From: Microcella pacifica
GTDB lineage: Bacteria; Actinomycetota; Actinomycetes; Actinomycetales; Microbacteriaceae
NCBI RefSeq assembly: GCF_009371975.2
Contig: NZ_VIKT02000015.1
Location: 1 to 64,000 of the forward strand
Length of the DNA: 64,000 nt
Direction: 5' to 3'
Shown here: in pieces, positions 7,444 through 46,237 of the stretch
Layout of the letters: every line of letters starts with the position of its first letter
Numbering within the stretch: the stretch's first letter is position 1
Notes under the pieces: model-generated
What the model was told of the DNA's origin: nothing
Seen by the model: the letters and a program-made list of their open reading frames with translations, nothing else
Databases searched by the model: none
Program-made: the position numbers and the translations under genes

Positions 7444-7534
7444 ACGCGCATCGCGTGACGGACGCGCCGCCCCATGCGCGGCTGGACTCAGGGTTCGGCG
7501 CTCGGCGCGCGGCGCGCGGCAGCGCAGGTCACTG

Positions 7535-7582
7535 CGAAAGTGACAACTCACGCCGAACGTTTCGCGTGGTTTGTCACTTTCG
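7535..7582. repeat. 48-bp imperfect palindrome with ACAACTC core
   Basis: CGAAAGTGACAA (7535-7546) is the exact reverse complement of 7571-7582, and the inner segments CACGC/GCGTG continue the pairing. A second, mutually exclusive stem is possible between CACGCCGAA (7549-7557) and TTCGGCGTG (7579-7587). It lies in a 287-base non-coding gap. It could act as a terminator for the yczE unit or be a mobile palindromic repeat like those at 29674, 46128 and 27032. Confidence 0.6.
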
Positions 7583-7650
7583 GCGTGTTTGAGCGCGGCG
7601 TGGCGCCTTGGGTCGGACCAGGCCGAGGCTCCCTCTTGCGCAGGCCGCAC

Positions 7651-7690
7651 TCGCGATATATCGTGAGTTCCGAACACGCGATATATCGCG
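7651..7690. promoter_or_regulatory. Twin CGATATATCG palindromes, probable PadR operator
   Basis: CGATATATCG occurs at 7654-7663 and 7679-7688, centred 25 bp apart. The second extends to the perfect 14-mer CGCGATATATCGCG (7677-7690). Such AT cores are rare in this GC-rich DNA. They lie 41-77 bases before the DUF4097 start in an operon whose second gene is a PadR repressor, so autoregulation is the simplest reading. Confidence 0.6.
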
Positions 7691-23919: not shown

Positions 23920-23984
23920 GCCAGATCTGGCGCATAAGGGCGCTCACCTCGTGCTCGAGCGCCCATTCGTGCCAGATCTGGCGC
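23920..23984. repeat. Palindromic GCCAGATCTGGC element, copy 1
   Basis: GCCAGATCTGGCGC at 23920-23933 recurs exactly at 23971-23984. Inside, GGGCGCTC (23938-23945) pairs with GAGCGCCC (23957-23964). The whole 65-bp unit can fold into a long stem. It lies just after the purC stop. A similar copy lies at 24946-25009, on the other side of the CatE-like gene. Confidence 0.75.
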
Positions 23985-24945: not shown

Positions 24946-25009
24946 GCCAGATCTGGCGCGAAAGGGCGTTCACGCTCGGGCTCGAGCGCCCATGTGCGCC
25001 AGATCTGGC
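24946..25009. repeat. Palindromic GCCAGATCTGGC element, copy 2
   Basis: GCCAGATCTGGCGC at 24946-24959 and GCCAGATCTGGC at 24998-25009 enclose an AAGGGCG-to-CTCGAGCGCCCAT core that closely matches copy 1 at 23920-23984, in the same orientation. It starts 14 bases after the CatE-like gene stop. It may serve as a bidirectional terminator or be a non-autonomous repeat. Confidence 0.75.
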
Positions 25010-25877: not shown

Positions 25878-26699
25878 GTGCCTCCGACCTCGCGCCCGCA
25901 GTCGCCCAGTCCGCAGCCGCTCGGCCCGCAGACTCCCCAGCCGCAGACTTCACGACCGCTGCGCGGCCGCCGACTGAGCCGGGCCATCGCCCTCGCGCTC
26001 GCCCCCGTGCTCGTGCCGCAGACGGTGAAGGTGCGGCGCACGGTGCCGAAACTGCCGGAGGCGCCGCGCCCGTGGGAGGGCGGCGGCGGCACCGATCCGC
26101 TGCAGCTGCTCGTGCTGGGCGATTCGATGGCGGTCGGCGTGGGCGTCGACGATGCCTCCGACGGGCTGGCCGGGCACCTCGCGGCGGGGCTCACGGTGCG
26201 GACAGGGCATCCGGTGCGATGGCGCGCCCGGGGGCGCAACGGGGCGACCGCGCGCGACGTCATCGACGACCACCTCGCCGAGGCGCTGAGCGAGCCAGCC
26301 GATCTCATCGTGCTGAGCATCGGCGCGAACGATGCGATGCAGGTGCGCTCCCATCGGGCCTTCCGGCGCGACGTGAAGCGCATCCTGCACGACATCTTCG
26401 CCGCGCACCCCGGGGCGATCGTGCTCATCGGGGCTCTGCCCGCGTTCCACCGCTTCGAGATTCTGCCCGAGCCGCTGCGCAGCACGCTCTCGCTGCACGC
26501 CCGCGCGCTCGACGTGGCCGCCCGGCGCGCGCTCGAGAGATTCCCGCGAGCGCATATGTCACCGGAGCTGCCCCCGTACAGCGAGGGATTCTTCGCCACC
26601 GACGACTTCCACCCGAGCGCGCAGGGGTACCGGGAGTGGGCAGAGTTCGCCCTCGACGACGCGTGGTCGCACGGCATCGCCCGCGTCCTGCCCTCGTGA
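25878..26699 (+). CDS. SGNH/GDSL hydrolase 2 (tandem paralogue)
   Basis: A 273-residue paralogue of the preceding gene. It has the same blocks: LQLLVLGDSMAVGVGVDD, ARGRNGATARDVI, LSIGANDAMQVRS and FFATDDFHPSAQGYREWAEF. The N-terminus is extended by about 25 Pro/Gln-rich residues (SRPQSPSPQPLGPQTPQPQ), the main difference from its twin. It has its own TAGACT box (25865-25870) 7 bases before GTG 25878, so it can be transcribed separately. The stop overlaps the next gene (GTGA). Confidence 0.9.
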   Translation: MPPTSRPQSPSPQPLGPQTPQPQTSRPLRGRRLSRAIALALAPVLVPQTVKVRRTVPKLPEAPRPWEGGGGTDPLQLLVLGDSMAVGVGVDDASDGLAGHLAAGLTVRTGHPVRWRARGRNGATARDVIDDHLAEALSEPADLIVLSIGANDAMQVRSHRAFRRDVKRILHDIFAAHPGAIVLIGALPAFHRFEILPEPLRSTLSLHARALDVAARRALERFPRAHMSPELPPYSEGFFATDDFHPSAQGYREWAEFALDDAWSHGIARVLPS

Positions 26700-27376
26700 C
26701 CCGTGCGCGCGGCGGCACCGCCGACGACCGCGCACGGCCCGAACGTCTCGCCGGTATCCCGGCCCTCGCGGCCGTCGTTGCGCGGCTACGCGACCAACAC
26801 CCGCCCGCCTCAGGTCGCCTGCTGGTGGGCCTGGCGGGTGCTCCCGGTGCGGGCAAATCGACGGTCGCCGCGGCGCTCGCCACCGCGCTCCCCGGCACCG
26901 CGGTGCTGCCGATGGACGGCTTCCACCTTCCGCAGTCCCGCTTGCGAGACCTCGGCCGCCGCGACCGCATGGGCGCACCCGACACGTTCGACGTGGCCGG
27001 CTTCACGACCCTGCTGGCGACCCTGCGTGATGTCGACAACTCAGGACGAACCGTGCTCGCCCCCGGCTTCGACCGAGAGAGCGAAGAGCCGGTGCCCGAC
27101 GCCGTGGCTCTGAGTCCTGAGTTGTCGACCGTCATCGTGGAGGGCAACTACCTGCTGCTCGACCACGGCGGCTGGGAGGCGGTCGCCCCGCTGCTGCATG
27201 CCGCCGTCGGCATCGTCGTCGACGACGCGGTGCGCCGCGATCGTCTCATCGCGCGCCACATCGCCTTCGGCAAGGATCCGGATGCTGCGCGCGCCTGGGC
27301 TCTCGGCCCCGACGAGCGCAACGCGGCCGCGATCGCGGCGACCCTCGAGCGAGCGGACTACCTGCTCAGCCCCTGA
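26696..27376 (+). CDS. Nucleoside/nucleotide kinase family protein (P-loop)
   Basis: A 226-residue P-loop kinase resembling uridine kinase/FrcK-type proteins. Walker A is GLAGAPGAGKSTVAAALA (about residues 43-60). The substrate segment is LPMDGFHLPQSRLRDLGRRDRMGAPDTFDVAGF. The family block APGFDRESEEPVPDA and the strand VIVEGNYLLLD (Walker B-like) follow. GTG 26696 overlaps the upstream stop. Two segments, DVDNSGR and SPELSTV, are encoded by the arms of a perfect 16-bp inverted repeat (27032-27047 and 27114-27129). The conserved core between them is intact, so the enzyme is probably functional. Confidence 0.85.
   Translation: MTRARGGTADDRARPERLAGIPALAAVVARLRDQHPPASGRLLVGLAGAPGAGKSTVAAALATALPGTAVLPMDGFHLPQSRLRDLGRRDRMGAPDTFDVAGFTTLLATLRDVDNSGRTVLAPGFDRESEEPVPDAVALSPELSTVIVEGNYLLLDHGGWEAVAPLLHAAVGIVVDDAVRRDRLIARHIAFGKDPDAARAWALGPDERNAAAIAATLERADYLLSP
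27032..27129. repeat. Perfect 16-bp inverted repeat inside the kinase gene
   Basis: GTCGACAACTCAGGAC (27032-27047) and GTCCTGAGTTGTCGAC (27114-27129) are exact reverse complements separated by 66 bases, all within a coding frame. The arm core ACAACTCAGGA also forms the arms of the intergenic palindrome at 46128-46237. Chance formation at this spacing is very unlikely. Confidence 0.85.
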
Positions 27377-29660: not shown

Positions 29661-29673
29661 CGCGCCCGCGCGC

Positions 29674-29738
29674 CTTCCACAACTTCGGAGTGGTGCCCGC
29701 GCGCCTCGCAGGGTCCTTCCACTCCGAAGTTGTGGAAG
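29674..29738. repeat. 20-bp perfect inverted repeat after purQ
   Basis: CTTCCACAACTTCGGAGTGG (29674-29693) and its exact reverse complement (29719-29738) flank a 25-base loop. The stem is far longer than needed for termination, and no T-run follows. It shares the CCACAACT arm start with the element at 46128. Confidence 0.85.
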
Positions 29739-29770
29739 CCCCCGCAGCGCGAACCCGGCGACACGCGCTC

Positions 29771-46127: not shown

Positions 46128-46237
46128 CTCCACAACTCAGGAGATCCTGCGCGCTTCCGACTCGCGACACGCCGGTGCGGCCCTCACCCTCGGGACTGTG
46201 GGCGCCGAGGCCGAGCCGCATCTCCTGAATTGTGGAG
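46128..46237. repeat. 110-bp element with 18-bp inverted arms
   Basis: CTCCACAACTCAGGAGAT (46128-46145) matches the reverse complement of 46220-46237 at 17 of 18 positions, with a 74-base GC-rich middle. The left arm starts 2 bases after the MFS stop. Its arm core ACAACTCAGGA equals that in the kinase-gene repeat at 27032-27129, and CCACAACT is shared with 29674-29738. Confidence 0.8.

Follow-up and report, generated by a model that had tools for sequence, protein, structure and literature searches.

Why should the coding sequence of a kinase-like gene in Microcella pacifica contain two 16-nt arms that are exact reverse complements of each other? The gene lies in a 64,000-nt stretch of DNA (the window; positions 1 to 64,000 of contig NZ_VIKT02000015.1), and the genome to which the window belongs (2.72 Mb in 62 contigs) is referred to here as G000. 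The repeat is not private to the kinase. Its arm word recurs through the genome as facing pairs of regular spacing, and pair density peaks at a putative nuclease gene that is itself bracketed by two pairs. The kinase repeat is one member of a paired-site family that probably comprises the recognition sites and ends of a nuclease-gene cassette plus solo copies. The argument draws on the following features of the window:

26696-27376, forward strand: kinase-like gene that holds the repeat; GTG start; Pfam PRK / uridine kinase family
27032-27047, forward strand: left arm, GTCGACAACTCAGGAC, encoding part of DVDNSGR
27068-27091, forward strand: FDRESEEP codons of the kinase, the position of the core motif CGGCGTGTCG in nine of 21 orthologues; the core is lost here
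27114-27129, reverse strand: right arm, the exact reverse complement of GTCGACAACTCAGGAC; on the forward strand it encodes part of SPELSTV
46132-46233, no strand assigned: second, intergenic family member, with ACAACTCAGGA at 46132 (forward) and ACAATTCAGGA at 46223 (reverse); arm distance 91
46165-46173, forward strand: core motif CGACACGCC of the intergenic member

The kinase gene product scores 24.7 bits against the Pfam PRK / uridine kinase family (cut-off 22). As an earlier note on this DNA had described, the repeat within the gene is perfect over 16 nt (100% complementarity, 66 nt between the arms), and the arms encode the DVDNSGR and SPELSTV segments that flank FDRESEEP. The note had also linked the arm core to an intergenic palindrome at 46128-46237, and this too is real, being made of ACAACTCAGGA and its one-base variant ACAATTCAGGA. 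Across G000 the two cores occur 13 and 31 times, respectively, against none for the reversed-pattern control in both searches; the repeat therefore exceeds chance. Thirty-eight of the 44 arms make 19 exact facing pairs, one further arm has a partner with a single mismatch (C34:58823), and five are unpartnered. With 19 exact pairs, G000 is far from the genome devoid of other such pairs that, in the note's own terms, would have spoken against a repeat family.

The typical site has a pair of 11-bp arms (ACAAYTCAGGA) that face each other, and many sites also have an off-centre core, GGCGTGTCG. Over all loci gathered, 174 distinct pairs were found with at most one mismatch per arm and arm distances limited to 60-106 bp. 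These distances fall into four classes with none between: 67-68 (15 pairs), 78-81 (125), 88-92 (28), and 99-103 (6). The spacing thus changes in steps of ∼11 bp, about one turn of DNA. The gaps at 73-77, 82-87, and 93-98 bp are not an artefact of the search window, because some loci were gathered with patterns permitting 73-103 bp. We also scanned for the core in the 28 pairs of two clusters (12 on contig C34 of G000 and 16 in its relative G009). The core is present in 24 of them, always with 22-23 bp between its end and the near arm; the far arm is 47-49 bp from the core in 23 and 72 bp in one. Where CTCAGGA and TTCAGGA arms are mixed in a pair, the C arm usually lies nearer the core (L111 and L112 are exceptions). 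The outer bases, CTCC or GTC(G/A), define arm flavours that follow species. The kinase pair has an arm distance of 79 bp, the commonest value in the family, and is atypical in its two C-type arms, its GTCG/GAC outer bases, and its lack of an exact core. This anatomy bears on whether the pairs might act as RNA, in the form of a long hairpin, terminator, or riboregulator. Complementary arms would indeed pair in a transcript, but the usual C/T difference between arms breaks a pair, the spacing is quantised by ∼11 bp, and the loop sequence is free. The mismatch and the phased spacing together disfavour an RNA hairpin, and we consider a role of this kind very improbable.

How did a family member come to occupy kinase codons? 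The earlier note offered two routes, a repeat family that can enter genes in frame and a template switch that copied one arm onto the other. The first holds in part. The family is genome-wide, and it has members in open frames: in the kinase, at the 3′ end of the nuclease-like DUF559-type gene itself (see below), and in a gene for a probable zinc-finger protein (G000:C16:9157). Entry by insertion into the kinase is not borne out. Some rickettsial-type palindromic repeats are described as lying in genes. We compared 21 kinase orthologues from the 26 genomes of the genus, the range of this comparison; the other five genomes gave weak matches. TCAGGA...TCCTGA at the family spacing occurs in 12 of the 21 across the genus, so the pair predates the lineage of the window. 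The exact core is found in nine of these 12 and in none of the nine orthologues without arms. The pairless orthologues are of equal length at the site or shorter by two to three codons, so no element-sized insertion entered the kinase; relative to these nine, an in-frame insertion of the rickettsial palindromic element (RPE) type is not seen. Judging from these alignments, the kinase pair appears to have been written onto pre-existing codons.

Those codons seem to be constrained in the DNA itself. TCA, GGA, CGG, CGT, CCT, and GAA at the arms and core are identical in all nine core-bearing orthologues. Outside the element, 31 columns are likewise codon-identical in all nine, mostly with common codons (GAC, CTG, GGC), so the argument for constraint depends on codon rarity; CGT is rare in these genes, making up four of 136 Arg codons elsewhere. 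The kinase core is displaced by ∼9-10 bp, roughly one turn, from its usual position in the family. G000 and G009 have lost the core, and their arms have the other clade's flavour; the present function of the site in these two genomes is therefore uncertain.

A local template switch within the kinase gene, with no wider system behind it, would fit the arms of these two genomes, which are identical over 16-18 bp. Between G000 and G009, 0 of 32 arm positions differ, compared with eight of 66 between the arms and 44 of 678 in the whole gene. However, the arms have the word and the spacing found throughout the genome-wide family, the pair and its spacing are common to orthologues across the genus (with the core in nine), and the pair is older than this lineage, so a template switch is not supported as its origin. 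As a full account we rate it highly improbable. The length of identical arm in G000 (16 bp), G009 (18 bp), and G015 (13 bp) might nevertheless reflect conversion between the arms or template switching.

The pairs are densest around a gene of ∼320 codons bracketed by two of them (G000:C34:55396-56364; G009:C1:1115148 onward). Orthologues of ∼50% identity or more are present in 23 of the 26 genus genomes, adjoining glyS in 22 and lying 7 kb away in G006; the gene is split over two frames in G013. No cassette lies between glyS and the next gene in G018, G019, and G021. All 23 orthologues have the upstream pair, and in 22 it precedes the start by 187-211 bp (G014 has an uncertain start). A second pair lies at the 3′ end of the gene in 19, often within the last codons, and is missing in G005, G006, G014 (contig end), and G015. 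Twelve proteins 66-100% identical to that of G000 go with CTCC arms and 11 at ∼50-56% go with GTC(G/A), with single-base exceptions, an agreement between arm flavour and protein clade that may simply follow the species tree.

In G009, 12 of 19 exact pairs lie within 1.0457-1.2022 Mb of the 2.585-Mb chromosome, ∼6% of its length (16 pairs with looser arms). Similarly, 11 of 19 in G000 are on contig C34, which is 6% of the assembly. Such clustering would be expected of sites that organise one region of the chromosome, as MatS or parS sites do. However, paralogous genes elsewhere carry pairs of their own, the cluster yielded no dif-like site, and the sampled stretches show a flat GC skew, which leaves chromosome organisation an improbable reading. 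More widely, the exact pair pattern occurs in nine of 299 genomes of a family sample and in 47 stretches of the genome collection, all from Microbacteriaceae genera or higher actinobacterial groups; none was found in viral contigs.

What does the bracketed gene encode? We putatively assign it an AbiEi-like DNA-binding N-terminal part followed by a nuclease part resembling Vsr and I-Bth0305I, of the DUF559/MTES_1575 type. The AbiEi_4 model scores 25.1 bits in L117 (cut-off 25), 18.8 in L139, and 16.1 in L144, and is unreported for L140. PADLOC AbiEi models match with E values of 1.7e-05 (L139), 0.00095 (L144), and 0.0027 (L082). DUF559 (PF04480) exceeds its cut-off in the Agromyces relative L139 (28.3 versus 20.6) and falls below it in the glyS-locus proteins scanned; MTES_1575 is below the Pfam cut-off in all proteins scanned. 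A scan of two proteins against NCBIfam returned no families. A sequence search of the PDB gave two matches, of which 3hrl (E 0.001) is the relevant one. The predicted model of the L144 protein (predicted local distance difference test score, pLDDT, 64.8; predicted template-modelling score, pTM, 0.51) matches 3hrl, an endonuclease-like structure, with probability 1.00 (E 0.079) and 3r3p, the homing endonuclease I-Bth0305I, with probability 0.99 (E 0.11); by probability these rank highest among its relevant PDB matches. Its match to the AbiEi structure 6y8q is weak (probability 0.15). Residues E231, D233, H238, E243, D245, and D249 are invariant in all seven sequences compared, a set of acidic and histidine positions that we take to be the motif typical of the EDxHD / Vsr-like fold. 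Genes of the DUF559 type that exceed the Pfam cut-off are present in 25 of 26 genus genomes. Across the order, 95 of 149 genomes have a relative of the glyS-locus protein. The name of the MTES_1575 Vsr-like domain was introduced in PMC3710099, where the passage concerned describes a different, larger protein.

Other genes of this type carry pairs of their own words, among them CCGAACGACGGA, TGCGCAACTCAGG, AATCACGGA, TTCAAGGAG, and CTCCGGAGA. We scored a gene as bracketed when one 8-letter word formed facing pairs on both of its sides. Of 62 loci, four were set aside because they were duplicates or lay too close to the end of a contig. Eleven of 21 glyS-locus genes passed, seven of them with equal spacing, as did 14 of 37 other genes of the type, all 14 with equal spacing (some of the 37 are mutually orthologous and so not independent). 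Among control reading frames, just one of 249 passed, and none with equal spacing. Order-wide, nine of 29 loci are bracketed, seven with equal spacing, under distance limits slightly wider than those of the control. A stricter word test found pairs at 21 of 60 loci (some places being represented twice among the 60), compared with none of the 30 kinase loci or 100 random pieces tested; with looser 8-letter words, 30 of 60 loci were positive, but so were three of 30 and four of 100 controls. From these counts, the bracket is a recurrent layout.

This layout recalls REPINs, in which two inverted short repeats with a variable spacer lie near a partner gene, RAYT, and as dispersed copies; spacing is similar, and pairs may flank the gene (PMC3116915). 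In Microcella, repeats stand on both flanks of 19 out of 23 glyS-locus genes and 14 out of 37 others, but this type of gene is no RAYT. Its product is a predicted nuclease of another fold, the spacing is phased, and the kinase member arose without insertion. Moreover, the RAYT (Y1) transposase family, PF01797, is found in none of the 26 genus genomes, while five of 14 control genomes match. We accordingly reject REPIN/RAYT membership, and true REPINs moved by a RAYT transposase are the least probable explanation that we considered.

Do the pairs move? The G002 genome has a paralogous cassette of ∼1.25 kb whose two flanks adjoin directly in G003 (92% identical) and almost do so in G010. Three elements on C34 share interiors far above shuffles (scores of 96, 61, and 56 versus a null maximum of 30), and nine of 66 comparisons between C34 element interiors exceed this maximum. 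At the place of one G009 element that G000 lacks, G000 retains an arm-like remnant, suggestive of loss.

The strongest rival to a cassette with solo sites is that the pairs are operators of a host regulator: the AbiEi-like protein represses its own gene from the upstream pair and controls others through dispersed pairs, and nothing moves. AbiEi and Rv2827c each bind inverted repeats that precede the gene encoding them (PMC7319586), the upstream pair keeps to 187-211 bp from the start in 22 of the 23 orthologues, the kinase site is kept without insertion, and all 12 C34 elements are common to G000 and G009. However, a regulator leaves three observations unexplained, namely the second, equally spaced pair after the gene, the shared interiors among copies, and the clustering of 12 of 19 exact G009 pairs in ∼6% of the chromosome near the gene. 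On balance we think this reading unlikely, although it is a serious competitor.

We favour the cassette with solo sites, and several observations weigh against it. The domain scores of the glyS-locus protein straddle or miss Pfam cut-offs, and the structure matches are weak, none with an E value below 0.001. The upstream pair is nearly fixed relative to the gene, as an operator would be. The kinase site is not an insertion, and in G021 (assembly 71% complete) the kinase has a pair yet the glyS cassette is absent. Most loci do not score as bracketed (23 of 37, 10 of 21, and 20 of 29 fail), and one paralogue group in G000, near a gene that we take to be dapA, shows no bracketing pair. The G002 cassette could reflect gain or clean loss, both of which fit the sequences, and G001, G006, and G011 have another gene of the type beside its flank. 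The presence of a partner at the same place in G009 for each of the 12 C34 elements of G000 makes the family look stable, not active. We infer binding and movement.

If the cassette reading is right, the N-terminal winged-helix part would bind cooperatively to the two arms of a pair of its own motif, by analogy with AbiEi and Rv2827c and their inverted repeats, and the nuclease part would act at or near the arms. The bracketed gene would behave as a cassette whose ends can be duplicated elsewhere, or retained there, as solo sites. One of these would be the kinase site, which took shape on codons already present, with no insertion, and which selection on the DNA would maintain in most of the lineages carrying it. 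The lineage of G000 and G009 lost the kinase core, and its arms became one longer perfect repeat. More tentatively, and with somewhat less than even confidence, we suggest a class of selfish or domesticated bacterial elements in which an AbiEi-type binder joined to a homing-type nuclease would recognise helically phased arm pairs at the element's own two ends. Such elements may seed, rewrite, or maintain solo pairs, even on host codons, with word and spacing varying by paralogue across the Micrococcales.

Other known systems resemble parts of this arrangement. The bracketed gene is like that of AbiEi in its putatively AbiEi-like N-terminal part and in having inverted repeats in pairs upstream, and the AbiEi operator gaps, 3 and 13 bp, are roughly one turn apart (PMC7319586). 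Unlike that operator, the Microcella arms are far apart (67-103 bp), a second pair follows the gene, copies are dispersed, and a nuclease domain is present. The predicted catalytic part resembles EDxHD / Vsr-like homing endonucleases such as I-Bth0305I (3r3p, 3hrl), whereas the Microcella gene lies outside any intron or intein, has paired-repeat ends, and is fused to an AbiEi-like part. Rickettsial and other CGTC repeats are also palindromic and lack a dedicated transposase (PMC3733652), but in Microcella the kinase copy did not come by insertion and there is an apparent cognate gene. The main text of PMC3733652 contains none of the words Actinobacteria, Microbacter, and Clavibacter, and in a mostly open-access literature with few preprints we found no paper linking DUF559-type genes with flanking paired repeats. 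For individual DUF559-type genes and glyS-locus relatives, the pairs are candidates for the sequence recognised, and their naturally occurring variation in arm word and spacing makes specificity directly testable. The layout pairs a REPIN-like arrangement with a different kind of partner protein, and the kinase site would be a case of DNA constraint within coding sequence.

Several further observations concern individual copies. The open-frame element of the probable zinc-finger gene (L006:1031-1978) is 114 bp long and reads LHNSGV...TPELWR; its protein matches the DUF4379 zinc-finger family weakly (22.8 bits, cut-off 24.5). A conserved site lies not at xseB but between recO (Pfam RecO) and what is presumably a NifS-like gene. 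Near 1501-1590 of L018 and L078 (G000:C8:20402 and G009:C1:109014), an element lies between truncated LacI-type and FGGY kinase genes. The former is without its helix-turn-helix domain and the latter without its N-terminal domain, so that the place resembles a deletion junction. In Glaciihabitans (L075:1099-1735), the arm word forms an array, with several pairs upstream of a gene that we read as pyrR. In Salinibacterium (L142:6471-6569), it occurs as direct repeats ∼21 bp apart.

Other palindromes occur in the window and the genome. A sister palindrome, ACAACTTCGGA as a facing pair with an arm distance of 44, lies at 29661-29751 of the window and at G000:C4:28624-28679. Its word has 12 genome copies (control 0) and three facing pairs, one of them just upstream of an AbiEi-like reading frame at C4:28833 that is without the nuclease part. 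The palindrome GCCAGATCTGGC has four exact copies in two close pairs (window 23920-23931 and 23971-23982; 24946-24957 and 24998-25009), a number reached in none of 100 shuffles (mean 0.31), and occurs also in stretches of G000 and G009. Two more neighbouring inverted repeats lie at 7530-7587 and 7652-7690 of the window, one of which contains GTGACAACTCAC.
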